64,000 nt of DNA. Origin: Pseudomonas sp. AL03 (GTDB lineage: Bacteria > Pseudomonadota > Gammaproteobacteria > Pseudomonadales > Pseudomonadaceae). Where the stretch lies: assembly GCF_029960815.1 (NCBI RefSeq), contig NZ_JASBRE010000003.1:186001-250000 (forward strand), written 5' to 3'. Shown here one piece after another: positions 21,793 through 40,194 of this stretch; the stretch's first letter is position 1, and each line of letters begins with the position of its first letter. Both the position numbers and the translations under genes were made by a program. The notes beneath the pieces were generated by a model. That model was not told where the DNA came from. It did not search any database and worked only from the letters and a program-made list of their open reading frames with translations.

Positions 21793-24411
21793 TCAACCGA
21801 GGGTTCTGGCCAAAAACGGTGCGGTCCGGCTCTTCTTGCTTTTGGCGACTTTCTGCGGCGTGCCTGCAATAACAATCTTCCCGCCCTGATCCCCCGCCCC
21901 CGGGCCAATGTCGATCACCCAGTCACTCTGCGCAACCACGCGCATTTCATGTTCGACGACGATCACCGTATGCCCCGCCGTCACCAGCGTATTCAACTGT
22001 TCGAGCAAGCGATCGACATCCCTTGGGTGCAATCCGGTGGTGGGCTCGTCGAGCACATACAGCGTGGCCCCACGCTGGTTGCGTTGCAGCTCGGTGGCCA
22101 GTTTGATCCGTTGGGCTTCGCCGCCCGACAGCTCGGTCGCCGGCTGACCGAGGCGCAAGTAACCCAGGCCGATATCGCGCAGCACCTCCAGCGAGCGGTG
22201 AATACCCGGTTGTTCGGCGAATACCGTAACCGCTTCATCCACCGTCAACTGCAACACCTGGGCGATGTTCAAGCCTTGCCAGACGATCGCCAGCGTCTCG
22301 GGGTTGTAGCGCGCGCCGTGGCAGGTCGAGCATGGCGCATAGACGCTGGGCATGAACAGCAACTCGACGCTGACAAAGCCCTCACCTTCGCACGTCGAGC
22401 AACGGCCCTTGGCAACGTTGAAGGAGAACTGACCGGCGTCGTAACCCTCGGCCTGCGCCTCGGGAGTGGCGGCGTACAGTTTGCGCACGTTGTCAAACAG
22501 CCCGGTGTAAGTCGCCAGGTTTGAGCGCGGTGTGCGGCCGATGGGTTTCTGATCGACTTGCACCAGACGCTTGATCGATTCCAGCCCCGTCGTGACCTGA
22601 CCGCCGCTGACTTGCGGTGCGTCGTCCTCAAGGCTCAACGCTTGCGGCTCGCTGTCACTTGCCGCGCGCCCGAGATGAGCGCCCACCAGCTCCAGCAACG
22701 CCTGGCTGACCAAGCTCGATTTACCGGAACCCGAGACGCCCGTCACCGCGGTAAAACAGCCCAGCGGAAACTCGACGCTGAGGTTGTTCAGGTTGTTGCG
22801 GGTGATGCCTTCCAGCCGCAGCCATTCGGTCGCCTGGCGGCTGGCTCGGGGCCGGGTGGCCTGCTCGGCGAACAGATAAGCACGTGTCTGCGAGTTCGTC
22901 ACATCAGCCAAGCCTGGCGGCGGTCCGCTGTACAGGATCCGGCCGCCATGCTCGCCAGCCGCCGGGCCCACATCGATCAACCAGTCGGCGCGGCGCATGG
23001 TTTCCAGGTCATGCTCGACCACGAACAAGGTGTTGCCAGCGGCTTTCAAGCGTTGCAGGGCTTCGAACAGTGCCTCGCCATCCGCCGGGTGCAGACCGGC
23101 CGACGGTTCATCCAGCACGTAAATCACCCCAAACAACTGCGAACCCAATTGCGTCGCCAGGCGCAGACGCTGCAACTCACCGGACGACAGCGTCGGTGTG
23201 CTGCGGTCCAGCGCCAGGTAACCGAGCCCCAGATCAGTTAACGTACTGACCCGCTCCAACAAGTCTTGAGCGATCCGTTGCGCGGCCAGGCGTTTCTCCA
23301 CAGACAGATTCGGTGTGTGGCGCACATCCGGCGCGTTGGCGTGGCCACTGGCGCCGTGGGCGACTCGCTGCTCACGGGCCTCGCGGGTCTGGCTGTGCGT
23401 CAACACCTCGCCCGCCTCGTCGGCCTGTTCGAGGTAACTGTGAGCGGCCACCGGCTTCAGCACTTGCGCCACTTGCAGCAACGGCATCTGCGACAATTCG
23501 CCGATGTCGTAACCGGCAAACGTCACCGACAACGCCTCGCGCTTGAGCCGTTTGCCGTCGCACAGCGGGCACGGGCTGCCGAGCATGAATTGAGAGACGC
23601 GCTTCTTCATCAGCGCGCTTTGCGAATGGCTGAAGGTGTGCAGGATGTAGCGCCGGGCGCCGGTGAACGTGCCCTGGTAACTCGGCTCCATCTTGCGTTT
23701 GAGCGCGACGTTGGTTTCTTCGGGGGTGAGCCCGGCGTACACCGGCACCGTCGGTGTTTCTTCGGTGAAGAGAATCCAGTCGCGCTGCTTTTTCGGCAGA
23801 TCGCGCCAGGGTTTGTCGACGTCGTAACCCAGGGTCACCAGAATGTCGCGCAGGTTTTGTCCCTGCCAGGCGGTGGGCCAGGAGGCGACCGCGCGCTGGC
23901 GAATGGTCAGGCTCGGGTCCGGGACCATCAGGGCTTCGGTGACTTCATAAACCCGTCCCAACCCATGGCATTCCAGACACGCGCCCTGGGGCGTATTGGG
24001 CGAAAAGTCTTCGGCATACAGCATCGGCTGCCCCGGCGGATAACTGCCGGCCCGGGAGTAAAGCATGCGGATCAGGCTCGACAACGTCGTCACGCTGCCC
24101 ACCGAAGACCGCGTGCTCGGTGTGCCCCGTTGTTGTTGCAGGGCCACCGCCGGCGGCAAGCCTTCGATGGAGTCGACGTCCGGCACCCCGACCTGATCGA
24201 TCAGTCGCCGCGCATAAGGCGCCACGGATTCGAAATAGCGGCGTTGCGCTTCGGCGTAGAGGGTCGAGAACGCCAGTGACGACTTCCCCGAACCGGACAC
24301 GCCGGTGAACACCACCAGGGCATCCCGGGGAATGTCGACATCGACGTTTTTGAGATTGTGTTCCCGGGCGCCGCGCACCCTGACCATGCCTGAGGGAGGG
24401 TTGGAAGTCAT
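21793..24411 (-). CDS. uvrA2: UvrA-like excinuclease subunit, class II (UvrA2)
   Basis: From ATG 24411 the protein has 872 residues, shorter than housekeeping UvrA (about 940), consistent with class II UvrA that lacks the UvrB-binding insertion. Both ABC halves are complete: [11 protein letters not shown] (about 35-45) with [14 protein letters not shown], and a second [12 protein letters not shown] with [15 protein letters not shown] and [13 protein letters not shown] zinc-finger pattern CSTCEGEG ... CSTCHGAR is in the second half. Class II UvrA proteins are linked to damage tolerance and drug resistance rather than core repair (family knowledge). The in-frame upstream ATG at 24492 lies in a repeat and is rejected. 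Confidence 0.9.
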
Positions 24412-24452
24412 GGACCTGCCTTGGTTAAATAGCGGAAAGAACTCTGACGTTT

Positions 24453-24483
24453 GATCGTTCCCACGCTCCGCGTGGGAACGATC
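24453..24483. repeat. REP hairpin, GATCGTTCCCACGC core
   Basis: A perfect stem GATCGTTCCCACG / CGTGGGAACGATC shares its core with the repeat at 2067-2173. It lies between the second hybrid kinase gene and uvrA2, both on the minus strand. Confidence 0.88.
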
Positions 24484-24498
24484 AACGATCAAATCGGG

Positions 24499-26610
24499 TT
24501 AGCCATTGAGCACCGTGCGGACCATCTGTGTGAGCGCCTCGGGACCATAGGGTTTGCTCAGCAGCCAGGTGTCGGGGCTGAGTTGGTGATTGCGCGAAAT
24601 AATGTCACGGGTGTGGCCCGAGGTGAACAGCACGGCCACCGGCGGCGTCTGCACCTTGGCCCAGGCGGCCAGGTCCGAGCTTTTGATCAGGCCGGGCATG
24701 ACCACGTCGGTGAAAATCAGGTCCACTGCCGCGCCCTCCAGCAACATCTGCATGGCGACGTCACCGTTGGCAGCCGTCAGGACTTGATAACCTGCTTCGC
24801 TCAGTAATTCCACCGCAGCGCTGCGCACCGCCTCGTTGTCCTCGACCACCAGAATGGTTTCGTGTCCGCCTCGTTGTTGCGGATCGTGAAGTGTCGTTTC
24901 GCTCTGCATCGGACGCAGGCTGCGAGGGAAATACAGTTGCACCCGAGTGCCCTGCCCGACCACGCTGGAAATCTCGATATGCCCGCCACTCTGCTTGACG
25001 AAACCGAACACCATGCTCAATCCAAGCCCCGTGCCCTGGCCGTCGGCCTTGGTGGTAAAAAACGGTTCGAAAGCCTGTGCGAGTACCTGCGGCGACATGC
25101 CGACACCCGTGTCAGCCACCGCTGCACAAACATAGTCACCGGCGACGATGCCCTTGCCTGCACAAAACTTGCTATCCAGGACAATGTTCTCGGCGCTCAG
25201 GTTAATGGTCCCCTCGCCTTTCATGGCGTCCCGGGCATTGATCGCCAGATTGAGGATGGCGTTTTCCAGTTGATTGCGGTCCACGTAGATGTGCCAAAGG
25301 GCTTCATCTGCGCAGACATTGATCTGGAGGGTTTCCCCCAGCGCTCGCTGCAACAATTCACCGAGTCCGTCAAAGACCTGCCGCAGATCGCAGACTGCTG
25401 GCGACAAGGGCTGACGACGGGCGAACGCGAGCAATTGCGAAGACAGTTTGGCGCCGCGCTCGACCGCGGCAATCGACGCACTGACCCGGCGCTGCACGTT
25501 GGCGTTGTCCGGTTCATGCCGCGCCAGCAAGTGCAGGTTGCCGGCGATCACCTGCAAGAGGTTGTTGAAGTCATGGGCCACGCCGCCGGTGAGGCCGCCG
25601 ATGGCTTCGAGTTTCTGGGATTGACGCAGTTGTTCTTCAGCGGCCAGCCGCGCTTCGACTTCGTCGGCAACGCGTTGCTCCAGGTTGCGGGTGAACTTGA
25701 GCAAGGATTCTTCGGCGGTCTTGCGTTCGTGGATGTCGATCAACACCCCGGGAAAACGGAACGGTTCGCCCTGTTTATTGAACTCGCAGCCACCACTCGC
25801 TTGCACCCACAGATAACTGCCACCAGGGCGCTGGACCCGATACTCGGCGTTAAAGGGTTCGCCGGTTTCCACTGATTGATTGATCTGTTCCTGCACCCAA
25901 CTGCGGTCATCGGGATGGATCTGTGCTTCGGCGATGTCCGTTGGCAAGTCGGTCAGGTTTTGCTCGGGCGGGTAAGAAAAGGTGCGGGCGAAACGCTCAT
26001 CGCCGGAGAGCACATTACCCTTGATGTCCCAGACGAACGAGCCGAGCAAAGCCCCGGCATTGAGCGCCAGGCGCACCCGTTCGTTGTCGGCGTGATAGGC
26101 GTCCTCGGCGGCCTGACGACGGCGTTCGGAAATCACATGCTCGGTGGTCTCGACCACCATCGCCATGACCCCGGCCGGTTTCCCCTCATCATCAGCCACC
26201 GGGCTGTAATAGAGGTCCAGCCAGACGTCTTCGGGTATGCCGTCCCTCAAAAGCACAAACTCTTTATTGCGATAGGACAATGTGCCGCCGGCCAGGCAGG
26301 TGTCGACCACATGCCGATTGAACTCGGCGACTTCCGGCCAGCCCAGTTCCACCGGGGAGCCCAACAGGTAAGGATGTCGGCCACCGGCAAACGTCGAGTA
26401 CGCATCGTTATAGATCATGTAACCCGCACGACCCCACAGCATCACCATCGGCAGTGGGGACGCGAGCATCAACTGCACCGCGCTGCACAGGCTTGCGGGC
26501 CAGGTGTCCATGCCCCCCAACTCAGTCACGCTCCAGTCGAACGCGCAGATACGCCTGGCCATTTCACCGTTCCAGCCGGCACACCTGTGGCTATCGTCTA
26601 GAAACTGCAT
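24499..26610 (-). CDS. Hybrid sensor histidine kinase, PAS-PAS-HK-REC
   Basis: This 703-residue soluble protein has an N-terminal PAS-like/GAF-like region (about 25-170, GYMIYNDAYSTFAGGRHP), a PAS-PAC (about 190-305, IHPDDRSWVQEQI), a coiled-coil linker, then HisKA with His 346 in GGVAHDFNNLL. HATPase motifs follow (NLAINARDAM, GTGLGLSMVFGFVKQSGG) and a C-terminal receiver has Asp near 635 (DLIFTDVVMPG). The first PAS resembles bacterial photoreceptor-associated kinases, but no LOV cysteine motif is seen. It is upstream of uvrA2 on the same strand with an 87-base gap containing a REP hairpin, so they may be cotranscribed. Confidence 0.92.
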   Translation of the reverse strand: MQFLDDSHRCAGWNGEMARRICAFDWSVTELGGMDTWPASLCSAVQLMLASPLPMVMLWGRAGYMIYNDAYSTFAGGRHPYLLGSPVELGWPEVAEFNRHVVDTCLAGGTLSYRNKEFVLLRDGIPEDVWLDLYYSPVADDEGKPAGVMAMVVETTEHVISERRRQAAEDAYHADNERVRLALNAGALLGSFVWDIKGNVLSGDERFARTFSYPPEQNLTDLPTDIAEAQIHPDDRSWVQEQINQSVETGEPFNAEYRVQRPGGSYLWVQASGGCEFNKQGEPFRFPGVLIDIHERKTAEESLLKFTRNLEQRVADEVEARLAAEEQLRQSQKLEAIGGLTGGVAHDFNNLLQVIAGNLHLLARHEPDNANVQRRVSASIAAVERGAKLSSQLLAFARRQPLSPAVCDLRQVFDGLGELLQRALGETLQINVCADEALWHIYVDRNQLENAILNLAINARDAMKGEGTINLSAENIVLDSKFCAGKGIVAGDYVCAAVADTGVGMSPQVLAQAFEPFFTTKADGQGTGLGLSMVFGFVKQSGGHIEISSVVGQGTRVQLYFPRSLRPMQSETTLHDPQQRGGHETILVVEDNEAVRSAAVELLSEAGYQVLTAANGDVAMQMLLEGAAVDLIFTDVVMPGLIKSSDLAAWAKVQTPPVAVLFTSGHTRDIISRNHQLSPDTWLLSKPYGPEALTQMVRTVLNG

Positions 26611-26843: not shown

Positions 26844-27533
26844 TCACACCTCGATCAGGTGCTTGAGCGGGTGGTAGCCGGTTTTCAACGTGGCGGCGAC
26901 GTCGAGGATCGCTTTCTCAATGCCATTCAAATGCATGCAAGTCAGTTCGATCGCGGCACTTTGATTGCCCGCTTCGATGAACTCGATCAGCCGCAAATGT
27001 TCATCGTCGCGGCAGGCTTCATGGCTGTCGTCATCCAGCGCGGCGGCGTACAGCGAGGCGCGGGATATCAGCTTGCGGAACCAGTCCAGCAGCACCGGGT
27101 TATTCAGGCTTTGCGCGAGTTTGATGTGGAACTCGCCGAGCAGATGAATCAGCCGCTCATGGTCGCCACTGCGGTGCGCTTCATCCTCCAGCAGCAAGTG
27201 ATCACGCAAGTCCTGGGTCACGGCGGAATCACGCCGGCGGCAGAGTTCGGTGACGATGCCGATTTCGATCAGACGCCTGGTTTCGAACAACGAACGGATT
27301 TCTTCATCACTCGGCAACGACACCGACGCGCCTTTGTTGGGTTCGGTGGTGACCAGCCCGTCGGCCTCCAACTGTTTGAGTGCAGCACGAACCGACGTCC
27401 GGCTGACATTAAAAAGTTCGGCCAATGACGCTTCGCCAAGCTTCATGCCGGGACGCAATGAACGTTTGCTGATTGCCTCGTAAACCCCTTGGTAGACACG
27501 GTCGACCGTGGTCTCCAGTTTTTTCTCGGACAT
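26844..27533 (-). CDS. GntR family regulator, FadR/FCD subfamily
   Basis: From ATG 27533 (AGGAG with a seven-base gap) the protein has 229 residues. The N-terminal winged helix (MKLGEASLAELFNVSRTSVR, LKQLEADGLV) is followed by an all-helical FCD ligand domain with EFHIKLAQSLNNPVL, DDEHLRLIEFIEAG and MHLNGIE, including likely metal-binding Asp and His residues. It is divergent from the ABC importer operon with 140 bases between, and is the probable repressor of that operon, relieved by the imported substrate or a metabolite (inference). Confidence 0.92.
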   Translation of the reverse strand: MSEKKLETTVDRVYQGVYEAISKRSLRPGMKLGEASLAELFNVSRTSVRAALKQLEADGLVTTEPNKGASVSLPSDEEIRSLFETRRLIEIGIVTELCRRRDSAVTQDLRDHLLLEDEAHRSGDHERLIHLLGEFHIKLAQSLNNPVLLDWFRKLISRASLYAAALDDDSHEACRDDEHLRLIEFIEAGNQSAAIELTCMHLNGIEKAILDVAATLKTGYHPLKHLIEV

Positions 27534-27628
27534 CTGAACACTCCTATTGCGCGAAACAACCGCCCCCTGGCGATGAGCAGCCATTGAAAAAGGGGGTTGC
27601 GCGAGCAGGTTAATCCGGGTATTTCTAA

Positions 27629-27653
27629 ATTGCATCCAGATATTGCATACAAT
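27629..27653 (+). promoter_or_regulatory. Putative GntR operator/promoter of the importer-amidohydrolase operon
   Basis: The 25-base stretch holds two direct copies of ATTGCAT (27629-27635 and 27642-27648). The second is part of the near-palindrome ATTGCATACAAT, close to the TGTATACA-type sites bound by FCD regulators. The end TACAAT resembles a -10 box. It lies 20 bases before the ATPase start, in the divergent gap. Confidence 0.5.
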
Positions 27654-27673
27654 AATTAGAGGAATGCACCATT

Positions 27674-28759
27674 ATGGGTCGTCCAGTCGCAATCGAAGTG
27701 CGTAATGTATCTAAACGGTATTCCGACGATCCGGGGTTGGCTCCAGCCCTCGACAACGTTTCAGTCGACATTACCGACAACGAATTCTTCACCCTGCTCG
27801 GCCCTTCCGGCTGCGGTAAAACTACCTTGTTACGCACCATCGCCGGTTTCGAACAGGTCAGCGAGGGCGAGATTCGTCTGGCCGGCGAACCGGTCAATGA
27901 CTTGCCGCCGTTCAAGCGCCGGGTCAACACAGTGTTCCAGAGCTACGCGCTGTTTCCGCACATGAGTGTCGCGCAGAATATCGCCTTCGGCCTCGAGATG
28001 CAGGGTCTTGATCGCAAGCTCATCGCGCAACGGGTCGATGAGATGCTGGCACTGGTACAAATGCAACACCTGGCCAAGCGCACACCGGCCGAGTTGTCCG
28101 GTGGCCAGCAGCAGCGCGTGGCGCTGGCTCGGGCCCTGGCGCCGAAACCCAAAGTGCTGTTGCTGGATGAACCGCTGTCGGCGCTGGACTTGAAGCTGCG
28201 CAAGGAAATGCAGGTCGAACTCAAGCGCGTGCAGAAGGAAGCCGGGATCACCTTCATTTTCGTCACCCACGATCAGGAAGAAGCCCTGACCCTGTCTGAT
28301 CGCATTGCCGTGATGTCCGCCGGCAAGATCCTGCAGATCGGTACGCCCAACGACATTTACGAACGCCCGCAGCATCAGTTTGTCGCCCAGTTCATTGGCG
28401 ACATCAACTTTCTCCCCGGCCATCTCAAGCGCGGTCAGCAGAACGAAAAGCTCTTCGTGCCCAATGGCATGCCGGTGGAAATCCCCTGCCCGGCCCAAGG
28501 CTTCGACGGCGCGGCCGTGCAATTGGCCTTCCGCCCGGAGCGTTCGCAACTGGTCGACCCTACGCAACCGCATCACCTGCGCGGCGTGATTGAAGCGGTG
28601 TTGTATGTCGGCACCGCGACCCTTTACCAATGCCGATTGAACAACGACATCAAAGTCATGCTGCGCGAGAACAACGAAGGCCTGAACCGCGGCCGGGTGG
28701 TCGGTGATCGCGTCGCGGTCAACCTGCCGCCCCACGCCTGCCTGTTGATGGAGGCCTGA
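27674..28759 (+). CDS. ABC importer ATPase, PotA-type
   Basis: This 361-residue protein energises the importer from the cytoplasmic face. Visible motifs are Walker [12 protein letters not shown] (about 43-53), Q-loop, signature [15 protein letters not shown] (about 142-156), Walker [13 protein letters not shown] and the H-loop FVTHDQEEA. The C-terminal third is a TOBE-type regulatory domain ([13 protein letters not shown]). It is most similar to PotA/PotG of polyamine importers, but the actual ligand of this group cannot be fixed. The ATG has GAGG 10 bases upstream. First gene of the operon. Confidence 0.93.
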
Positions 28760-28760
28760 G

Positions 28761-29678
28761 ATGAGCGTCAGCAGCACTTCTCCCGCCCTTAACCGTGCGC
28801 TGTTGCTCAGCCCGGTGGTTTTGACTTTGCTGGCGCTGATTGCCATTCCGCTCGGCATCATGGGCTACATCAGCCTATTGCCACGCAACGTTTACGGTGG
28901 CGTCGACTGGCAGGCCAACTGGCAATTGCAAAGCTACGTGCAGCTGTTTTTCCAGGAAGGTTTCGACGGTGAACTGGAACTGAACTGGGTCTACGCCCAG
29001 GCGCTGTTGCGCTCGGTGTTCCAGGCCGGTGGCACCACGTTGCTGTGTTTTCTGTTTGGCTTCCCGGTCGCCTTGTGGATGTCGAGCCTGACCCCGCGCC
29101 GGCGCAACCTCATGGTGTTGCTGATCACCATTCCGTTCTGGACCAACCTGCTGATCCGCAATTACGCCTGGCTGATCATCCTGCGCGAACACGGCTGGGT
29201 CGCCCAAAGCATTAATGCACTGTTCCCCCAGGCCGGTGGCATCACCCTGCTCTACAACGACTTCGCCGTCAGCGTCGGGCTGGTCTACAGCTTCCTGCCG
29301 TTCATGATTTTGCCGATCTACTCGACCCTGGAGAAACTCGACTGGCGTCTGGTGGAAGCGGCTTACGACCTTGGCGCCAACCGCTGGCACGCGTTGCGGC
29401 GGATCATTCTGCCGCTGTCGATGCCCGGCGTGATTGCCGGTGCGCTGCTGGTGTTCGTACCGAGCCTCGGCGCCTTCATCACCCCGGCGATTCTCGGCGG
29501 AGGCAAGACGCTGATGATCGGCAACCTGATCCAGCAACAGTTCGGCACCGCGCGCAACTGGCCGCTGGGCAGTTCGTTGTCGTTCCTGCTGCTGGGGATT
29601 CTGCTGCTGTCCCTGGTGCTTTACGCCCTCTATAGCCGCAAGGCCGCCAAGAACCTGCGTCGGGGAGCCACCGCATGA
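28761..29678 (+). CDS. ABC importer permease, PotB-type
   Basis: This 305-residue protein starts one base after the ATPase stop. Six hydrophobic segments are visible, starting with LLLSPVVLTLLALIAIPLGI. The EAA loop LVEAAYDLGANRWHALRRIILPLSMPG contacts the ATPase. The pattern matches the first permease of spermidine/putrescine importers. Confidence 0.93.
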   Translation: MSVSSTSPALNRALLLSPVVLTLLALIAIPLGIMGYISLLPRNVYGGVDWQANWQLQSYVQLFFQEGFDGELELNWVYAQALLRSVFQAGGTTLLCFLFGFPVALWMSSLTPRRRNLMVLLITIPFWTNLLIRNYAWLIILREHGWVAQSINALFPQAGGITLLYNDFAVSVGLVYSFLPFMILPIYSTLEKLDWRLVEAAYDLGANRWHALRRIILPLSMPGVIAGALLVFVPSLGAFITPAILGGGKTLMIGNLIQQQFGTARNWPLGSSLSFLLLGILLLSLVLYALYSRKAAKNLRRGATA

Positions 29679-30463
29679 TCGCCCTGCACTTGAAAAAACT
29701 GCCACTGACCCGTGAATTCAGCCTGTTGATCCTGGCCTACCTGTACGTGCCGATCTTTGTGCTGATCGCCTACAGCTTCAACGCCAACCGCTCGGCAACG
29801 GTGTGGACCGAGTTCTCCTTCGCCTGGTACGGACGGATTCTGGCGAACCCGTCGATCCAGACCGCCGCGTTGAATTCGATCATCGTCGCCAGCATCGCCA
29901 CGGTCTGCGCCACGGCCATTGCGTTGCTCGCAGCGCTGGCGACCTATCGGCCGTTTTACGGACAGAAGATGATCGAGGGCGGGATCAACCTGCCACTGAT
30001 CCTGCCGGAGATCGTCACCGCCGTGGCCACCCTGCTGCTGTTCATGGCGCTGGGGATCAAGCTCGGTTTGCTGACGGTGATTGTCGCGCACATCGGCTTC
30101 TGCATTCCCTTCGCGTACCTGCCGATCCGCGCGCGGCTCAATGACCTGGACAAGAGCTTGCTGGAGGCGGCGAACGATTTGTACGCCAACCCGTGGCAGG
30201 TGTTTCGCCGGGTCACCTTGCCGCTGCTGTGGCCAGCGGTGTTGTCCGGGTCGGTGTTGGCGTTCGTGGTCAGCCTCGACGATTTCATCATGACCTTCTT
30301 CGTCGCCGGCCCCGGTTCGACAACGTTGCCGGTGTACATCTTCTCGGCGATCAAGTCCGGTGTCACGCCGGAGATCAACGCGATCTCGACCCTGATGCTG
30401 GTGATTTCCATCGTGCTGGTGGTGCTGGCCTTCTGGCTGGGACAGCGCGGCAAAAACCAATGA
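29675..30463 (+). CDS. ABC importer permease, PotC-type
   Basis: This 262-residue protein overlaps the previous gene by four bases (ATGA). It has six predicted transmembrane segments and the EAA loop SLLEAANDLYANPWQVFRRV followed by TLPLLWPAVLSG. SFNANRSATVWTEFSFAWY near the N-terminus is characteristic of PotC-type permeases. It pairs with the PotB-type permease. Confidence 0.93.
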   Translation: MIALHLKKLPLTREFSLLILAYLYVPIFVLIAYSFNANRSATVWTEFSFAWYGRILANPSIQTAALNSIIVASIATVCATAIALLAALATYRPFYGQKMIEGGINLPLILPEIVTAVATLLLFMALGIKLGLLTVIVAHIGFCIPFAYLPIRARLNDLDKSLLEAANDLYANPWQVFRRVTLPLLWPAVLSGSVLAFVVSLDDFIMTFFVAGPGSTTLPVYIFSAIKSGVTPEINAISTLMLVISIVLVVLAFWLGQRGKNQ

Positions 30464-30480
30464 GTCTGGAGCCTGCTGTT

Positions 30481-31548
30481 ATGAATAGAAAGCCTATGAA
30501 ACTGAAAAGCATGCGTTACGGCGTCGCCGGTCTGGCCCTCAGTTGCTTCACCGTTTTCACCGCACTGGCCGCCGAGCCCAAGCAATTGTTCTTCTACAAC
30601 TGGACCGACTACTACCCGGTGGAACTGCTGGCCAAGTTCGAAAAGGAGACCGGGATCAAGGTCACCATGGACGGCTACGACAGCAATGAAACCTTGCTGG
30701 CCAAGTTACAGGCCGGTGGCGCGGCGTACGACGTGATCGTGCCGTCGCAGTCGATCATGCGCACGTTGATCAACCAGGACCTGCTGCTGGAAATCGACGC
30801 CGCGTCCCTGCCCAACTTCCAGTACGTCAAACCGGCGTTCCGCAACCCGAGTTTCGACCCGGGCCGCAAATTCTCCGCACCGTACCTGTGGGGCACCACC
30901 GGGTTTTCCTATGACAGTGCGCGGGTGCCCGGCGGCAGGCTGGACGATTCGTGGAAAGAATTCTTCGAACCGCGCAAGGAACTCAAAGGCCAACTCGCCG
31001 CACTCGACACCTCCAGCAGTGTGATCAACGCGGCCAGTCATTACCTGAACGTCGACGAATGCAGCGAAAACCCGCAGGACGCCAAGCGCATTCTGGAGCT
31101 GCTGCAAAAACAGAAACCGCACTTGAAGATGTACAGCTCGGACAACACCGTCGACCGCATGGCTTCCGGTGAGGTGATCATGATGCAGAACTGGAACGGC
31201 TCTACCGCCCGGGCCACGTTGCAAAAAAGCACCATCAAGTACGTGTACCCGCGCGAAGGCCTGGCCATGTTCCAGGACAACTTCGCCGTGCCGAAAAGCG
31301 CCCCGCACCCTGGCAACGCGAAGATCTTCATCGACTGGATGATGAAGCCGGAAAACGCCGCGGCCGTGTCCAACGCCATCGCCTACGACAACGGCATTCA
31401 AAGCGACAAGTTGATCGACGCCAAATGGCGGGTCATGGACGCCATCAACATGCCCGACGAGTTTGCCTCGCGCCTGCGCCCGGAAAAAGAGTGCAGCAAC
31501 AAGGCGCGTGAGCTGCAGGATCGGATCTGGTCGAAGCTCAAGGGTTGA
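30481..31548 (+). CDS. ABC importer periplasmic binding protein, PotD/PotF-type
   Basis: ATG 30481 has GGAG nine bases upstream; an ATG at 30460 overlaps the previous stop and would add seven residues. The 355-residue product has a signal peptide ending about ALA-AEPKQ. The mature protein has PotD/PotF hallmarks: LFFYNWTDYYPVELL, YDVIVPSQSIM, MMQNWNGSTARA. The aromatic NWTDYY box supports a cationic or amine-bearing ligand, but the downstream amidohydrolases point to a nitrogen compound other than plain polyamines (inference). Confidence 0.92.
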   Translation: MNRKPMKLKSMRYGVAGLALSCFTVFTALAAEPKQLFFYNWTDYYPVELLAKFEKETGIKVTMDGYDSNETLLAKLQAGGAAYDVIVPSQSIMRTLINQDLLLEIDAASLPNFQYVKPAFRNPSFDPGRKFSAPYLWGTTGFSYDSARVPGGRLDDSWKEFFEPRKELKGQLAALDTSSSVINAASHYLNVDECSENPQDAKRILELLQKQKPHLKMYSSDNTVDRMASGEVIMMQNWNGSTARATLQKSTIKYVYPREGLAMFQDNFAVPKSAPHPGNAKIFIDWMMKPENAAAVSNAIAYDNGIQSDKLIDAKWRVMDAINMPDEFASRLRPEKECSNKARELQDRIWSKLKG

Positions 31549-31575
31549 TTGACTGGCTTGAGACCGAGTCGCGGC

Positions 31576-31667
31576 CTTCGCGGGCAAGCCTCGCTCCTAC
31601 GGGATTCGGGTTGAATCACAACGTTGTGATCGACAACGAACTGTAGGAGCGAGGCTTGCCCGCGAAG
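31576..31667. repeat. Inverted repeat (25-base arms) with internal palindrome
   Basis: The arms 31576-31600 and 31643-31667 are perfect reverse complements (CTTCGCGGGCAAGCCTCGCT onward). The spacer contains a perfect 16-base palindrome ATCACAACGTTGTGAT at 31614-31629. It is of REP type, found between the binding protein gene and the first amidohydrolase gene of the same operon. Confidence 0.9.
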
Positions 31668-31703
31668 AGGCCAGCGAATACACCACCCAATTTGAGGCTT
31701 GAT

Positions 31704-32900
31704 ATGACCCAACCCCGCTGGCTGCGCAATGTGCGGCCCTACGGTTCAACCGCCAAAGACCTGCTGATCGAAAACGGCCTGTTCAAGCAACACCGCCCGG
31801 CATCGACTGCGGTCCTCACCGCCACCGACATCGACGGCCAAAACCAGCTCCTCACCCCTGCCCTGGTTGAAAGCCACATCCACCTGGACAAAACCCTCTG
31901 GGGCCAACCCTGGCGTGCGAACAGCGCCGGGCCGACGCTCAAGGATTACATCGCCAACGAGCGCCGCGTGCTGCGTGAAGTCGACGCGCCCATCGCTCAA
32001 CGCGCCGGCGCGCTGCTGGAAAACTGCATCGCCCGTGGCTCGCTGACGATGCGTTGTCACGTCGATATCGACCCGGAATTCGGCCTGCGCCATGTCGAGG
32101 CCATGCAGCAACTGCGCGAAAGTTACCGCGACCTGATCGACCTGCAACTGGTGGTGTTCCCGCAAACCGGCCTGATCAGCCGCCCCGGCACCGCCGAACT
32201 GATGCGCGAAGCCATGGCCCTGGGCGTTGAAAACGTCGGTGGCCTCGACCCTTGCGGCATCGACAACGACCCGATCGCGCAGCTCGACTTCGTGTTCAAA
32301 CTGGCCAGCGAATTCGAGCGTGGCGTCGACATTCACCTGCACGACAAGGGAGAACTGGGCCTGTGGCAGATCGCGCGGATCGCCGATTACACCGAGCGCT
32401 TCGGGTGTCAGGGTCGGGTGATGATCAGCCACGCCTACTGCCTTGGGATGTTGCCGTGGAGCCAGGTTAAACCGGTGGCCGAGCGTCTGGCGGCACTGAA
32501 CATCTCGTTGATGAGCTCGGCGCCGGCCGATTGTGCGGTGCCGCCGTTCCTCGCCCTGCGCGAGGCCGGGGTGAATGTCTGTCTGGGTTCGGACGGCATT
32601 CGCGATGCCTGGTCGCCCATGGGTAACGGCGACATGCTGGAACGGGCGATGTTGTTGGCGTTCCGGTTCGACTTGAACAAGGACGATGAACTGGCGGCGG
32701 CGTTCGAAGCGGCGACGGTGAATGGTGCTCGGGCGTTGGGTTGTGAAGGGTATGGGGTGGAGATCGGCCAGCCGGCGGACTTTTTGCTGATGCCGGTGCA
32801 AACGCTGGGTGAGGCGGTGGTGTCGCGGCCGGTGCGCCAGGTTTATCGCGGCGGCGAGCTGATCGCTTCCGGCGGCCAACTGCTGGACAGTCGCTTGTGA
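31704..32900 (+). CDS. Cytosine-deaminase-like amidohydrolase
   Basis: From ATG 31704 (GAGGCTTGAT upstream) the protein has 398 residues. The metal motif is ESHIHLDKTLWGQPW (HxH about 58-60). Further ligands are in DIHLHDKGELGLW (about 209-219), ISHAYCLG and LGSDGIRDAWSPMGNGDML, the last two closely matching CodA-type deaminases. The family deaminates cytosine, isocytosine, creatinine-like or s-triazine-derived rings. The exact substrate is not known. It lies in the importer operon and its stop overlaps the next start, so the two hydrolases are translationally coupled. Confidence 0.85.
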   Translation: MTQPRWLRNVRPYGSTAKDLLIENGLFKQHRPASTAVLTATDIDGQNQLLTPALVESHIHLDKTLWGQPWRANSAGPTLKDYIANERRVLREVDAPIAQRAGALLENCIARGSLTMRCHVDIDPEFGLRHVEAMQQLRESYRDLIDLQLVVFPQTGLISRPGTAELMREAMALGVENVGGLDPCGIDNDPIAQLDFVFKLASEFERGVDIHLHDKGELGLWQIARIADYTERFGCQGRVMISHAYCLGMLPWSQVKPVAERLAALNISLMSSAPADCAVPPFLALREAGVNVCLGSDGIRDAWSPMGNGDMLERAMLLAFRFDLNKDDELAAAFEAATVNGARALGCEGYGVEIGQPADFLLMPVQTLGEAVVSRPVRQVYRGGELIASGGQLLDSRL

Positions 32901-34384
32901 AACGGATTGCTTTGAAAGCCCGCTGCGTGGTCGGGTTCGACGGCACACAGCATGTGCTGTGGCGCGACGGCGAAGTGGTGTTCGAAGGTTCGCACATCGT
33001 GTTTGTCGGTCGTGATTATCCGGGCCCGGTGGATCAGTGGATTGATTACGGCAACGCGTTGATCGGTCCGGGTTTTATCGATCTGGATGCGCTCGGGGAT
33101 CTTGATTCGACGGTGCTGACGCTGGACAACGGCGATGAACGCGACATGGGTCGGATGTGGTCCGAGGACTATCTGGCGAGCGGTCCGCGGGAGAGTTACA
33201 CCGCGGATGAAGAAGTCTTCAAGTACCGCTATGCCTTCACTCAGTTGATCCGCAACGGCATCACCACCGCCATGCCGATCACCTCGATGTACTACCGCGA
33301 GTGGGCCGAGACTTACGACGAGTTTTCTGCGGTGGCCGGTGTCGCTGCCGAGTTGGGGCTGCGAACTTACCTCGGTCCCTGCTACATGAGCGGCATGAGT
33401 TACTGGCGCGCTGACGGAACCTTGGGGCACCACTGGGACGAAGCGCGTGGAATGGCCGGGCTCGATGCGGCTGTTCGGTTTTTCCATGACTTCGACGGTG
33501 CTCACGAGGGTTTGATTCGCGGCGCGCTGCTGCCGGACCGCATCCAGACCTGCACCCCGGCCCTGCTGCAACGCACCGCTGCGTTGAGTCGGGAACTGAA
33601 CGCGCCGATGCGTTTGCATTGCTGCCAGGGGCTCGGTGAAGTGGCGATGGTCGAGCAACTGCGCGGCGTATCGCCCCTGACCTGGTTGCAGCAACTGGAC
33701 CTGTTGACCCCGCGCAGTCTGTTACCCCACGGCATCTACACCTCTGGTGATGACGATCTGCAACGCGTGGTGGATGGCGGCGCGAGTCTGGTGCATTGCC
33801 CAGTGGTGTTTGCCCGTGACGGCGAGGCGCTGAACTCTTTCGGTCGCTATCGGGCCAAGGGCGTCAACTTCGCCTTGGGCACTGACACTTGGCCGGCGGA
33901 CCTGCTGGAGAACATGCGCCAGGGTCTGAACATCGCGCGATTGATGGAGGGCGATGGTGCTTTGACCAGTACGTTGGACTTTTACAACGCCGCCACGCTC
34001 GGTGGCGCCAAAGCCTTGGGCCGAGACGATCTCGGCCGTCTGGCGCCGGGGGCCAAAGCCGACATCACGGTGTTCAGCCTTTGCGGCCTGCATTTGGGGC
34101 CGCTGTTCGACCCACTGAAAAACCTGGTATTGGCCGGGCGCGGTGACGATTGCATCGCCAGCTACATCGACGGCCGCTGCGTCATGCAAAACGGTCAGGT
34201 TCAAGGCGTCGACTACCCCGCCCTGCAACGCCAGGCCCAACAACAATTCGAAAAACTGATGCGCAGCCACAGCGACCGGGCCTTCGGCCAACCGGACTGG
34301 AAAGGCCTGTTCAAACCGGCCATCCCGTTCGCTGATGACTACAGCGCACACGCGCCGCTGAGCGCGATTGATCCACTTCTTTAG
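32897..34384 (+). CDS. Amidohydrolase-superfamily protein lacking the canonical HxH
   Basis: This 495-residue protein starts at GTG 32897, overlapping the previous TGA by four bases. Overall it follows the TRZ/ATZ-chlorohydrolase layout: GPGFIDLD at the barrel start, ALGTDTWPADLLENM as the late Asp motif, then LGRLAPGAKADITVF. The strand-1 motif, normally PGFVDxHxH, reads GFIDLDALGDLD (about 60-70), so both first histidines are absent. Later ligands are present: LHCCQG (about 240), LLPHGIY (about 277) and Asp in GTDTW (about 330). This may bind metal differently or have lost hydrolase activity. Confidence 0.82.
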   Translation: MKRIALKARCVVGFDGTQHVLWRDGEVVFEGSHIVFVGRDYPGPVDQWIDYGNALIGPGFIDLDALGDLDSTVLTLDNGDERDMGRMWSEDYLASGPRESYTADEEVFKYRYAFTQLIRNGITTAMPITSMYYREWAETYDEFSAVAGVAAELGLRTYLGPCYMSGMSYWRADGTLGHHWDEARGMAGLDAAVRFFHDFDGAHEGLIRGALLPDRIQTCTPALLQRTAALSRELNAPMRLHCCQGLGEVAMVEQLRGVSPLTWLQQLDLLTPRSLLPHGIYTSGDDDLQRVVDGGASLVHCPVVFARDGEALNSFGRYRAKGVNFALGTDTWPADLLENMRQGLNIARLMEGDGALTSTLDFYNAATLGGAKALGRDDLGRLAPGAKADITVFSLCGLHLGPLFDPLKNLVLAGRGDDCIASYIDGRCVMQNGQVQGVDYPALQRQAQQQFEKLMRSHSDRAFGQPDWKGLFKPAIPFADDYSAHAPLSAIDPLL

Positions 34385-34396
34385 AGAGTTCTGCCC

Positions 34397-35059
34397 ATGC
34401 AAAGCTTCGACTTCAGCCAATTGAGTCCGCGAGACAAGTACAAGATTCTGATCGGCAGCGTGGTGCCACGGCCGATTGCCCTGGTCACCACCATCGACGG
34501 TGAGGGTCGGATCAACGCCGCGCCCTTCAGCTTCTTCAACGCCCTCTCGGCCGACCCGCCGATCCTCGCGCTAGGCGTGGAAAACTACGGAGACCAAAGT
34601 CCCAAGGACACCACTCGCAATATCCAGCTCAACCAGGAATTCACCGTAAACATCGTCAGCGATGCCCTGGTGGAAGCCATGAATGTCTGCGCCGTGCCGT
34701 TTGCCCCCGGTTTCGACGAGCTGACTGCCGCCGGCCTTACCGCCATTCCCGGCACCACGGTCAAATGCCCACGAATCGGCGAAGCACCGGTGGCTCTGGA
34801 GTGTCGGCGGATGATGGCGCTGTCCATCGGGCAGTCGCGGGAGATTATCTTTGGCGAAGTGCTGATGGCCCATGTGCGGGATGAATTGATCGACCCGAAA
34901 ACCCTGTATATCGATCAGCTGGGGCTGGATGCGATTGGGCGGATGGGTGGGCATGGGTATGCGCGTACTCGGGATTATTTTGACTTGCCGACACGGTCGT
35001 TGCAGGCGTGGACGGATGCCCCGGGGGGTGGGGAGCGGTTTTGGCCTTTGGGTAAATGA
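34397..35059 (+). CDS. Flavin reductase-like FMN-binding protein
   Basis: This 220-residue protein starts at ATG 34397 after AGAGAGTTCTGCCC. It has the split-barrel flavin reductase pattern: VVPRPIALVTTIDGEGRINA, APFSFFNALSADPPILALG, and KDTTRNIQLNQEFTVNIVS. Such proteins reduce FMN/FAD for a two-component monooxygenase, or are flavoredoxin-like or oxygenases themselves. No separate monooxygenase is present in the operon. It is the last gene of the unit and converges with imuC. Confidence 0.9.
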   Translation: MQSFDFSQLSPRDKYKILIGSVVPRPIALVTTIDGEGRINAAPFSFFNALSADPPILALGVENYGDQSPKDTTRNIQLNQEFTVNIVSDALVEAMNVCAVPFAPGFDELTAAGLTAIPGTTVKCPRIGEAPVALECRRMMALSIGQSREIIFGEVLMAHVRDELIDPKTLYIDQLGLDAIGRMGGHGYARTRDYFDLPTRSLQAWTDAPGGGERFWPLGK

Positions 35060-35079: not shown

Positions 35080-38000
35080 CTAACGAAAATCCCGGCTGCG
35101 CACACTGATGCCGTCGAGCAATGGACTCAGGTCGCTCAACCGTCCGGCAATCAAATGCCGCACCTCGCCTTCCTTTTCCCAGCGCCCATCAACCTTGAGC
35201 AATTGCGAGCCGACCAACACCTGGCGCTGCCGGTCGGCCAAGTCGCGCCAGACCACCACGTTGACGTTGCCGAACTCATCTTCAAGGGTGACAAAGGTCA
35301 CGCCACTGGCGGTACCCGGCCGTTGCCGACCGGTCACCAGCCCGGCGACGCTGACCGGTCTTCCATGCTCGACATCCAGCAGCTCCTTCGAACTGCGGCA
35401 ACGCCGGGCCTTCAATTCACCCCGCAACAACGCCAGCGGATGCGGACCGAGCGTGGTGCCGACACTGGTGTAATCGGCTAGCAGGTCCTCGCCCACGGTG
35501 GGTTTGGGTAACGACACCGCGCCCTCCTCCTGACTCGGCAGACCGGTAAACAAGCCGAGCTGTTTCTGTACACCCGCCACTTCCCAGCGCGCCCGATGAC
35601 GGTCGCCGGCCAGCCCACGCAGCGCACCGGCATCGGCCAGTTGCTCCTGGGCGCGGGCATCGAGTCGTGCCCGCTCGCCGAGGTCGGCAATGTCGACAAA
35701 CGTCCCCTTCGACCTCGCCGTTTCGATGCGCCGGGCATCGTCCTCGCGAAAACCCTTGATCATCCGCAACCCCATGCGAATCGCCGGCTGGGCACCGGTG
35801 ATCGGTTCGAGGCTGCAATCCCAGTCACTGGCGCGCACGTCCACCGGGCGAATCTGCAAATGATGCCGGCGCGCGTCCTGCAGAATCTGGTCCGGGCTGT
35901 AGAAACCCATGGGCCAGCTGTTGATCAGCGCACAGGCGAAGGCCGCCGGCTCGTGGCATTTCAACCAGCAACTGGCGTAAGTCAGCAAGGCGAAACTGGC
36001 GGCGTGTGACTCGGGAAAACCGTAGCTGCCGAAGCCTTTGATCTGCTCGAAGATCTGCGCGGAAAATTCTGCCGTGTAGCCGTTTTTCTTCATCCCGGCG
36101 GCCAGGCGATCCTTGTGCGGTTCGAGCCCGCCGTGGCGTTTCCAGGCCGCCATGGAGCGGCGCAACTGATCGGCCTCGCCGGGGCTGTAGTCGGCGGCGA
36201 CAATCGCAATCTGCATGACCTGTTCCTGAAACAGCGGCACACCCAGCGTGCGCTTGAGCACGGTTTCCAGTGCCGGTGACGGATAGACCTCGGGTTCTTC
36301 CTTGTTCCGGCGTCGCAGGTACGGATGCACCATCCCGCCCTGAATCGGCCCCGGACGGACGATCGCCACCTCGATCACCAGGTCATAGAAGGTCCGGGGT
36401 TTGAGCCTCGGCAGCATCGACATCTGCGCCCGGGACTCGATCTGGAACACGCCGATGGTGTCGGCACGACCGATCATGTCGTAGGTTTGCGGGTCTTCGG
36501 CCGGGATCGTCGCCAGGCTCAGGTCCCGATGGCGATGGCGGCGCAACAGATCGAAACAGCGGCGGATCGCACTGAGCATGCCCAACGCCAGAATATCCAC
36601 CTTGAGCAGCCCGACCGCGTCGAGGTCATCCTTGTCCCACTGAATGATGGTGCGCTCGGCCATGGCGGCGTTTTCCACCGGGACCAGGCTGTCCAGAGGC
36701 TGCTCGGAAATCACGAAACCGCCGGGGTGCTGGGACAGGTGTCGAGGGAAACCGATCAGCTGCCCCGTCAGGCTCAGCACCCGGCGCAATACCGGGCTCT
36801 CGGGATCGAACCCGCCTTCAAGCAGGCGTTCCACGGGCGGTGTTGCATCACTCCAGTGGCCACAGCAATCGGCCAGGGCGTTGATCTGATCCGGCGGCAA
36901 CCCCAAGGCCTTGGCCACATCACGCACCGCGCCGGCCGCGTGATACGTGCTGACCACCGCCGTGAGCGCCGCGCGGGTCCGGCCATAACGCTGGAACACG
37001 TACTGCAAGACTTCTTCGCGACGCTCATGTTCGAAATCGACGTCGATGTCCGGCGGCTCGTTGCGTTCCCTGGAGAGAAAGCGCTCGAACAACAGCGTGG
37101 TGCGATCCGGATCGATTTCCGTGATCCCCAAGGCAAAACACACCGCCGAGTTGGCCGCCGAACCACGGCCCTGACACAGGATTTTTTGCTCACGGGCGAA
37201 ACGCACAATGTCGTGAACCGTCAGGAAATAGCTTTCGTAGCCCAGCTCGGCGATCAGCTCCAGTTCCTTGTCGATCTGCGTCAGCACCTTGGCCTGCGGG
37301 CCTTTTGACCAACGCCACGCGATGCCCTCTTCGGTCAAATGACGCAGCCAGGACGTGGCAGTCTGGCCTTGCGGTACCAACTCCCGGGGATATTGATAAC
37401 GCAACTGACCGAGGTCGAAGGTGCAGCGTCGGGCGATGTTCAGCGTTTCGTCGAGCAGTGTTTGCGGATAGATCGATTGCAGCGCATCGAGACTGCGCAC
37501 ATGCCGCTCGCCATTGGGATGAAGACGCAACCCGGCCTCCGCCACCGGCACGTGATGACGGATCGCAGTCATGGTGTCCTGCAAGGCGCGCCGGCCGCGA
37601 GCGTGCATGTGCACATCGCCGCTGGCCACTGCCGGGATTCGCAGTTCGCCCGCCAGGGTCAGCAGCGCAGCCAGCCGTCGTGTATCGTCCTGGCCGCGAT
37701 GTAGCTGGACGGCCAGCCACAGGCGTTCGGCGAAGGTCTGCTTCAGCCAGTGGCCCTGTTCAACGTCATCGACAGCGTCCGGCACCCACAACGCCAACAG
37801 CCCCGGCAGGGGTTCGCTGAAGTCTTCCCGCAGCACTTGATACTGGCCTTTCTGCGTTCGGCGTCGGGCTCGGGTAATCAGTCGGCACAGGGTTTGGTAA
37901 CCCTCGAGGTTTTCCACCAGCAGCACCAGTTTCGGGCCGTTCTCGATCCGCACTTCGCTGCCGATGATCAACGGCAGCTCCACGGATTTGGCCGCTTGCC

Positions 38001-38157
38001 AGGCGCGGACGATACCGGCCAGGGTGCATTCATCGGTGATTGCCAAGGCCTGATAGCCCTGTTTTTTCGCCCGCTGAAACAGTTCGAGGGCACTGGAAGC
38101 ACCGCGCTGGAAACTGAAGTTCGACAGGCAGTGCAGTTCGGCATAGTCGATGCTCAT
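35080..38157 (-). CDS. imuC: Error-prone DNA polymerase ImuC/DnaE2
   Basis: From ATG 38157 the protein has 1025 residues; an upstream in-frame ATG at 38178 would lie within imuB. An N-terminal PHP domain ([16 protein letters not shown]) is followed by the C-family polymerase core with the catalytic Asp motif [14 protein letters not shown] (about 367-380), helix-hairpin-helix and a C-terminal OB fold ([16 protein letters not shown]). It performs mutagenic translesion synthesis with ImuA and ImuB after DNA damage. The ATG overlaps the imuB stop (ATGA). Confidence 0.96.
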
Positions 38158-39569
38158 GCGAACCACCCCTGCAGCCACAACCGGCCGTCCTCACCGACCG
38201 CACGATAGGCCCAGCCCTGCTGGCCGGAGCGGGTTTCAATCAGGAAATAATCGCGGCGCACATCGTCACCGTCCCACCACCCGGACTCGATGCGTTCCGG
38301 CCCCATCAGGATGCGTGTCGAACCTTCGTGCACCGCCAGCGGTTCAGTCAGCAGCCAGCCCGGTCGTTGCACTGCAGGCAGCCCGCCACAGCGCTGACTG
38401 TCGACACTGGCCTGCCACGCGCATTCCGGCCGGTGATCGGCCTGGAACCGCAAACCCTGCACCGCGCCATCTCCCAACCGCGCCCGCAAGCGTTCGCGCA
38501 GTTGCTCCCAGGGCAAGGACTGCTGCGGACGGTCGTCGAACAGCTCCTGATACTGGGGAACGAAGGCCGGCAAGTCTTCGGCGCGCAGACGAAAACCGCG
38601 CACCGGGGCCTCGACCTGAACCTGTTCCAGCCGCCCTCGGGCCAGTTCGAAGAGCATCGCCGGATCACGTTCGGCGCTGAGCAGGCCGACCTTGATGAGG
38701 GTGTCCGGCAACCCGGCATGCTCCAGGTGCAGGTCGAAACGCTGCACGCCGCTGTCCCGCCCGCAAAGAAACGCCGACAGGTCACCGGTCAATCGGCGTA
38801 ACGGAAACAGCAGCGCCTGATGGGACTGCACATCGAAGTTGAGCTCGATGCGCACATCGAAGCGGTCCGGCGGCAGATAGAACGCCAGCGCCAGCTGCCG
38901 TAACCCGAGCAAGGTGTCCAGATGCTTGAGCACCTGGGCCTCGAAACGCCGGGCCAGACTATGGCGAGGCAACGCCTGAACCTGACTCAAAGTGCGCAGC
39001 CCCATGCGCGACAACGCCGTGGCGACGCTGGTCTCCAGCCCGATCCGGTCGATGGGCAACTGCCCAAGATGATGGTGCAAGGCTTGATCGTCGGGCACCA
39101 CCAGACCGTCATACGCGTTGGCCAGCACCCGCGCGGCCGCCGGGTTGGGCGCGGCAACAATCCGATGGCGAAACCCCAGTTCGCCGAGCTCGGTCCGTAA
39201 CCGCGCCTCGAATTGCGGCCAGGCGCCGAACAATCCCAGGCTGGACTCGATTTCAAACACCACCGCACGCGGGTAATGCACGCTGACCTGAGCGCTGAAG
39301 CGGTAGGCCCATGCAGCCAGAAACTGCTGCCAGTGTTCGATCTCGGCGGCATCGTATTCGGCCGTGGCAAACCCTTTGCTCAGCGCCTGCGCGGCGGTCA
39401 TCGACTGGCCGGGACGCAAGCCCAGCGCCCGCGCCGAACCGTTGACCGCCTGCAACACCCGACGCTGGGCCGGGCCGGTCAACAGCGCCAGCGGCGCATC
39501 GGGATCGGAGCGCTGACGCAGTACCGCGTCCAGCGCCAATTGCGGGAAAAGAATGCAGACCCAGCGCAT
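38154..39569 (-). CDS. imuB: ImuB, Y-family polymerase-like mutagenesis protein
   Basis: ATG 39569 gives [20 protein letters not shown], the usual start, and 471 residues; a far longer open frame upstream overlaps imuA and is not coding. The protein has the Y-family little-finger architecture ([35 protein letters not shown]). ImuB proteins lack a complete catalytic acidic triad and act as the hub linking ImuA, ImuC and the beta clamp (family knowledge). It overlaps imuC by four bases. Confidence 0.94.
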
Positions 39570-39576
39570 GGCAACC

Positions 39577-40194
39577 TCAATGCCCCACGGGAAAGGCAAT
39601 CGGCGCCGAGCGCGCCAACCCGCCCCGGCACTTGAGCACTCGCAATTGCGCAGGCCTGGCGTCGATGGCGATGCGCAAAGCGGCTGGCGAAGGGTTGATG
39701 GCTTCATTGATCGAGCGATAGGCGAACGCCAGGGTCGAGCCGGTTTCCGCCGCCACCTGCAAGCGCCGCAGCGCCCGGTCATCAGCCTTGTGCGGCCAGC
39801 ACAACACCGCACCGCAACTGCCCGAACGCAGGCATTGTTCGGCCGCCCACAGCGCATCGCGCTCGCTGGCCTGGATGATCGACAACTGGCGCAGATCGAC
39901 CCCGGCGTTCTGCCAGGCCTGGGGATACGGCACGTAAGGCGGTGCCACCAGCACGATGCGCTCGCCCGCGGCCGACAACCGCGCCAACGCCGGCCACACC
40001 AGTTGCAATTCACCGACGCCCTGCCCGGCCAAAAGGATTTCGGTCAGCGCCGCTTCCGGCCAACCGCCAGTAGGCAACGCCGCATCCAGCGCGGCATGCC
40101 CGGTGGGTTGCGGGCTGACGGCCGGTGGCGCAGGCCGGCCCTTCCAGACCTGGCCGCCATTGAACAGCGTATCCAGCGCAACGACGGCGCCCAT
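39577..40194 (-). CDS. imuA: ImuA, SulA/RecA-like mutagenesis protein
   Basis: This 205-residue protein starts at ATG 40194, directly at the lexA2 stop (GTGATG overlap), with AAGGG just upstream. It contains TGHAALDAALPTGGWPEAAL, the RecA/SulA-like signature, and an ERIVLVAPPYVPYPQAW strand. It partners ImuB in damage-induced mutagenesis. The imuB start is seven bases after its stop. Confidence 0.92.
   Translation of the reverse strand: MGAVVALDTLFNGGQVWKGRPAPPAVSPQPTGHAALDAALPTGGWPEAALTEILLAGQGVGELQLVWPALARLSAAGERIVLVAPPYVPYPQAWQNAGVDLRQLSIIQASERDALWAAEQCLRSGSCGAVLCWPHKADDRALRRLQVAAETGSTLAFAYRSINEAINPSPAALRIAIDARPAQLRVLKCRGGLARSAPIAFPVGH

Follow-up and report, generated by a model that had tools for sequence, protein, structure and literature searches.

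Within the amidohydrolase superfamily, LigI is known to function without a metal, and in the Rut pathway for uracil a flavin reductase is found beside the enzymes that degrade the pyrimidine ring. AtzC has been placed in the CodA cluster of this superfamily, whose members act on rings containing a C-N-C-O linkage and hold the substrate via an active-site glutamine located after strand 3 (PMC12828455), and PF04909 enzymes without a cofactor are mentioned in another report (PMC10811679). Here we describe an operon of Pseudomonas sp. AL03 comprising an importer, two amidohydrolases (A and B), a flavin-reductase-like protein (FR) and a divergent GntR regulator. It lies in a stretch of 64,000 nucleotides (assembly GCF_029960815.1, contig NZ_JASBRE010000003.1; G000:C33:186001-250000 in our numbering), hereafter the window, to which all coordinates refer. 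As suggested by our comparative analysis, this conserved operon likely takes up an amino-substituted nitrogen ring of pyrimidine- or hydantoin-like type and degrades it stepwise for nitrogen, with a probability of roughly 0.55. No publication on this operon was recognised in literature searches, the coverage of which was thin for subscription journals.

The eight genes span positions 26847-35059, where open reading frames and domain searches confirmed the layout that an earlier note on this DNA had claimed:

26847-27533, minus strand: GntR-family (FCD) transcriptional regulator, divergent (PF00392, 64.5 bits; PF07729, 58.2 bits)
27630-27652, plus strand: conserved direct repeat TTGCATCCA / TTGCATACAA, predicted GntR operator (intergenic alignment)
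27674-28759, plus strand: ATPase of a PotA-type ATP-binding cassette (ABC) importer (TIGR01187, 381 bits, cut-off 355.6)
28761-29678, plus strand: PotB-like permease of the ABC importer (PF00528; PotB equivalog 214.7, below the cut-off of 348)
29675-30463, plus strand: PotC-like permease of the ABC importer (PF00528; PotC equivalog 252.7, below the cut-off of 326)
30481-31548, plus strand: PotD/PotF-like periplasmic binding protein (PF13416; best PDB match, with 184 bits, the polyamine transport protein 3ttl)
31576-31667, no strand: palindrome of the repetitive extragenic palindromic (REP) type (perfect 25-bp arms, 252 genome copies of the arm)
31704-32900, plus strand: amidohydrolase A, AtzC-like, metal ligands complete (NF004636/PRK05985, 538 over 408; 6nbo, 329 bits)
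32897-34384, plus strand: amidohydrolase B, DLDALGDLD (residues 62-70) in place of HxH (NF004801/PRK06151, 735 over 416)
34397-35059, plus strand: FR, flavin-reductase-like split-barrel protein (PF01613, 89.6 bits; best PDB match 4z85, 149 bits)

From the ATPase to FR, the successive junctions are a 1-base gap, a 4-base overlap, a 17-base gap, a 155-base gap between the binding protein and A genes, a 4-base overlap and a 12-base gap. The claim of tight junctions interrupted by a single REP-containing gap was likewise borne out, the others being gaps of 1-17 bases or 4-base overlaps.

A scan of named genomes confirmed 92 relatives, of which 80, all Pseudomonas loci, were kept, and the complete eight-gene order was observed in 77 of these 80, which is far beyond chance; the operon proteins are 75-100% identical across many Pseudomonas species. 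Two of the exceptions (L068 and L088) end at contig borders, and the third (L049) is devoid of the flavin gene and carries dnaE2 directly after B. The order is also preserved in L121-L123, three additional loci from the same family, one of which is without the flavin gene. Among the genomes sampled, B was detected in 28/199 of Pseudomonas at E <= 1e-60 and in 9/398 of the phylum (the window's own counted) at 1e-80. It was also detected in 22 of 244 genomes from the order of G280 (one distant match) and in 1 of 229 class-sample genomes, which is the window's own.

Furthermore, the set of A, B, FR and GntR recurs in other Proteobacteria, the named examples being Alphaproteobacteria (rhizobia and roseobacters, of marine and soil origin), and B homologues were also matched in the Burkholderiales genera Rhodoferax, Polaromonas and Achromobacter. 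Outside the Pseudomonas family, 33 loci were typed (5 from phylum-sample genomes, 8 alphaproteobacterial plasmids and 20 regions of 19 genomes); A and B are present in all 33, FR in 27 and GntR in 29, and the regulator is kept in 77/77 complete Pseudomonas loci. When 116 loci were pooled, A was represented in all of them and FR in 108. Importer genes accompany the enzymes in all but one of the 33 typed loci, and the linkage of hydrolases to importer, for which the earlier note had proposed a neighbourhood check, thus held in other genomes. Nine further plasmid loci include exceptions in Shinella (discussed below), Sinorhizobium (S.) meliloti 1021, Arthrobacter and Qingshengfaniella. On pSymA of S. 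meliloti 1021 (L198), B was matched only beyond about residue 50 and adjoins an allantoinase, and the 25 kb fetched contain neither A nor a dipeptide-type (Dpp) importer, both of which are present in strain ml21 (L153). In Arthrobacter A and B are on opposite strands, some 6 kb apart, and at the Qingshengfaniella plasmid locus FR was not seen.

The A protein exceeds the PRK05985 (NF004636) cut-off of 408 with 538 bits, and its nearest solved structure is 6nbo, an AtzC-like protein of Burkholderia (329 bits), followed by AtzC with 187 bits and CodA with about 129. Nine residues (H58, H60, K63, H119, Q154, H211, H213, H243 and D297) are invariant in all 116 loci, and they include the ligand set of subtype III deaminases aligned with AtzC, i.e., HxH (H58 and H60), H211, H243 and D297, the last three of which we take to be the strand-5 histidine, strand-6 histidine and strand-8 aspartate. 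The invariant Q154 is aligned with the glutamine in the FAQSGF stretch of AtzC and is presumably the glutamine after barrel strand 3. The description of A as a "CodA-like deaminase" has to be corrected, A being nearer to AtzC-type proteins than to CodA. Taken together, these features support the view that A hydrolyses amino-heterocycles in a metal-dependent manner, with a substrate that is predictable as a class only.

The structure model of B (predicted local distance difference test, pLDDT, 94) displays a clear deaminase/chlorohydrolase barrel, to which adenosine deaminase, isocytosine deaminase and triazine hydrolase (AtzA/TrzN) are the closest folds, and the protein scores well above the cut-off of the "chlorohydrolase family protein" model NF004801/PRK06151. 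The metal-binding HxH was found in none of the 238 aligned sequences (240 homologues minus 3 not longer than 450 residues, plus the window's protein), which carry a conserved acidic motif instead, DLDALGDLD in the window and DLDAxxDxD in general. The HxH positions are occupied by D64 and L66 (or D68, given a 2-residue insertion). Because HxH is missing in all 238 homologues examined, the reading of B as no more than another ring hydrolase of the usual kind is not supported. The aspartate and histidine of the proton relay, D330 and H278, are present in 238/238 in alignment with 4dyk, while the position of the usual catalytic glutamate is taken by Gln244, a residue also found in HxH-bearing relatives.

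The loss of HxH in all homologues, along with the 4-base overlap of the A and B genes and their adjacency in most loci, would also be consistent with a non-catalytic B, a pseudoenzyme serving to stabilise or regulate A as its partner. We consider this unlikely, as eleven polar residues (D62, D64, D68, D70, R86, H241, Q244, E248, H278, D330 and D335) are invariant in 238/238 sequences, which would not be expected of a site in decay; among the 184 loci fetched, Asn at position 64 is confined to one copy (L150), in which the other catalytic positions looked at are kept; Shinella keeps B without A, and some loci (L170 and L193) hold two B genes. The divergent L150 (G765:C30) is a second B copy, the pair of B genes at L193 stands in one cluster of S. 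meliloti pSymB, and two B-type proteins each were also noted in Bosea (P0201/P0202) and Achromobacter (P0232/P0234), on contigs of the same length within each pair.

Tentatively, and with less confidence than in the uptake and degradation of a nitrogen ring as such, B may represent a widespread family of amidohydrolase-barrel enzymes with a catalytic mode of its own, either metal-free or with a metal held by carboxylates, in an undescribed pathway leading from a natural amino-heterocycle to hydantoin-type fragments with a stand-alone flavin mononucleotide (FMN) protein and interchangeable importers. As many as 2339 proteins match B at E <= 1e-60, and annotations listed among B homologues, such as "N-ethylammeline chlorohydrolase", "cytosine deaminase" or "5'-deoxyadenosine deaminase", imply a metal site that the 238 examined homologues lack. 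If B is active, the assignment of function across the amidohydrolase superfamily changes.

The importer was found to be exchanged between loci: among the 33 loci outside the Pseudomonas family it is of Dpp type in 30, of Pot type in 2 (L159 and L167) and of neither type in 1 (L175). Hence the enzymes and the regulator, and not the importer type, define the system, and the Pot-like ancestry is little informative on the substrate, since a Dpp-type importer is usual beside the same enzymes elsewhere. An operon for uptake of a polyamine or modified polyamine, the enzymes of which would trim an acylated or cyclised polyamine, could account for the ATPase exceeding the TIGR01187 polyamine cut-off and for the nearest solved relatives of the binding protein, which are polyamine, putrescine and spermidine binders (3ttl, 184 bits; 1pot, 158 bits). 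It would also agree with the conservation of W41, D43, W238 and D266 in 84/84 binding-protein orthologues and with the acidic residue that the two most distant orthologues (L159, E; L167, D) have at position 180, like polyamine binders. This explanation is nevertheless improbable: Dpp-type importers serve the same enzyme set in those 30 loci, the binding protein remains below the equivalog cut-offs of PotD (173.8 vs 582) and PotF (169.8 vs 636), and position 180 is Ser in 82/84 orthologues, aligned with a Glu that recurs throughout the five top PDB alignments listed (two being the same protein), which we take to be a ligand residue of polyamine binders. In addition, the genome encodes 11 further paralogues of the binding protein with 28-34% identity. 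Plain polyamine uptake was therefore rejected on account of the exchanged importer type and the unmet binding-protein cut-offs, and the binding protein may be compatible with a cationic ligand.

Even less probable is a recent operon for degradation of a xenobiotic s-triazine (melamine- or ammelide-like), for, although A is AtzC-like and B falls in a "chlorohydrolase" model with a fold like AtzA/TrzN, B is devoid of the HxH used by such enzymes, no cyanuric acid hydrolase was noticed among the neighbours in the 33 loci (no profile search for one was made), and the operon was rejected as a recent triazine pathway owing to its wide conservation over many Pseudomonas species, with the core in marine and soil Alphaproteobacteria.

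The best solved relatives of FR are the 2-nitrobenzoate nitroreductase NbaA (4z85, 149 bits) and component B of nitrilotriacetate monooxygenase (120 bits), and the alignment covers about 190 residues. A scan confined to the luciferase family (PF00296) covered 27 of the 28 B-bearing genomes from the phylum sample and the G280 order (G730, on a short contig, was left out), and the matches listed place a member no more than 10 kb from B in two genomes of these 27 (G654 and G705). The window's genome has four luciferase-family matches (C13, C41, C44 and C98), none of them on the operon contig C33, among the matches listed. A stand-alone FR is preferred because no luciferase-family oxygenase is consistently linked among the matches listed, and FR may act alone, although an unlinked oxygenase partner may exist. 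A Rut-like linked oxygenase was rejected as a candidate, since no RutA-like luciferase-family gene occurs on the operon contig among the matches listed.

Accessory genes at the 33 loci comprise a member of the hydantoin-racemase family in 21 (assigned from PF01177 in a reference copy); 10 loci have a third amidohydrolase, and 7 have a gene of nucleoside-deaminase-like type. In S. meliloti ml21 an allantoinase follows B (TIGR03178, 526 vs 357.85), and on a Methylobacterium plasmid (L200) an HxH-bearing B relative stands beside a carbamoylase (TIGR01879, 241 vs 204), a gene of dihydroorotase type and another with a racemase-family annotation. These neighbours would fit a nitrogen-ring pathway. 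The racemase homologue of the window's genome (L199; G000:C6, 7057-9469) adjoins an NCS1-type transporter that is below the cut-offs, with 294 bits to the NCS1 model and 280 bits to allantoin permease.

Several observations weigh against this interpretation. Pot and Dpp importers have a very broad substrate range. Neither a racemase nor an allantoinase is among the domains of the window's operon, and the Pseudomonas operon contains no racemase and no hydantoinase. Although a racemase homologue occurs in 28/28 Pseudomonas genomes with B, this proves little, because it is also present in 115/171 genomes without B, and the comparison is confounded by relatedness. FR is absent from 8/116 loci, including one that is situated on a short contig. 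The Shinella plasmid (L190) carries B, FR and GntR without A; A and B therefore need not act in series.

We infer the substrate, the order of reactions and the chemistry of B as follows. The ABC importer would bring an amino-substituted nitrogen-ring compound into the cell, where A would use metal-assisted attack of water on a C-N-C=O segment of the ring to strip off an exocyclic amino or alkylamino group, in the manner of AtzC and cytosine deaminase. B would then process the product of A, most likely by opening or further hydrolysing the ring, at an active site composed of the acidic cluster D62/D64/D68/D70 together with H241, H278 and D330, which would be metal-free or hold a metal mainly by carboxylates. 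FR likely reduces FMN and, subsequently, the substrate or an N-O or C=N bond itself, comparable to the action of NbaA on a nitro group. The ring fragments would feed a hydantoin- or ureide-type breakdown, in keeping with the racemase-family gene, and sometimes allantoinase, that other bacteria keep beside the operon. The proposal of the earlier note, import and breakdown of a nitrogen-ring compound, is thus supported in part, by the persistent linkage of the hydrolases to an importer and by the fitting neighbours, the reading of B as an ordinary ring hydrolase being unsupported.

Both GntR and FCD domains (PF00392 and PF07729) were found in the regulator. Comparison of 79 intergenic sequences (78 of the 80 Pseudomonas loci plus the window) revealed the strongest conservation in the 3' part, on the importer side, which in the window contains TTGCATNCA twice, 13 bases apart, at 27630-27652. 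This repeat is the predicted operator of the GntR regulator, which would bind it and let go on meeting a pathway intermediate. A scan for promoters and terminators was uninformative, with 0 promoter sites vs 1.9 in shuffled sequences. The gap between the binding protein and A genes measures about 56 to 648 bases in other Pseudomonas, and in the window a perfect inverted repeat of 25 bp fills 31576-31667 within it. As the arm has 252 copies genome-wide at <=2 mismatches vs 0 for the reversed pattern, this palindrome is a dispersed REP-type repeat and no part of the operon function.

Beyond the regulator, the open reading frame list, inspected by eye, contains a hybrid of histidine kinase and response regulator (24499-26610) and a gene for a UvrA-like ATPase (21793-24492), both on the minus strand. 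On the other side a polymerase gene (35080-38178), presumably dnaE2-like, and a presumably imuB-like gene (region 35080-40013, minus strand) converge on the operon. Of the 80 Pseudomonas loci fetched, 65 were seen to carry dnaE2, and several without it are short contigs.

Defining the substrate would assign a function to an operon that has its B gene in 28/199 of the Pseudomonas genomes sampled and its core in rhizobia and roseobacters, and would reveal a nitrogen-ring compound on which such soil, plant and marine bacteria feed.

Compared with described systems, the four-part importer resembles PotABCD-type polyamine importers, including an ATPase over the TIGR01187 cut-off, but differs from them in the permeases and binding protein, which remain under the PotB, PotC, PotD and PotF equivalog cut-offs. 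FR is related by sequence to NbaA (149 bits) and to component B of nitrilotriacetate monooxygenase (120 bits), with about 190 residues aligned, but as a rule is not accompanied by a linked luciferase-family oxygenase among the matches listed. The Rut pathway shares the flavin reductase next to ring-degrading enzymes, whereas the operon contig has no RutA-like luciferase-family gene among the matches listed. With the AtzC/CodA cluster (subtype III of the amidohydrolase superfamily) A shares HxH and the presumed strand-5 and strand-6 histidines and strand-8 aspartate, and it has a glutamine aligned with one of AtzC, but it is distant from both AtzC and CodA (187 and about 129 bits). B belongs to NF004801/PRK06151 together with adenosine, 8-oxoguanine and isocytosine deaminase relatives, from which it is distinguished by DLDAxxDxD in place of HxH and Gln244 in place of Glu. 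LigI, although a member of another branch (PF04909, against PF01979/PF07969), provides a precedent for metal-free catalysis in the amidohydrolase superfamily.

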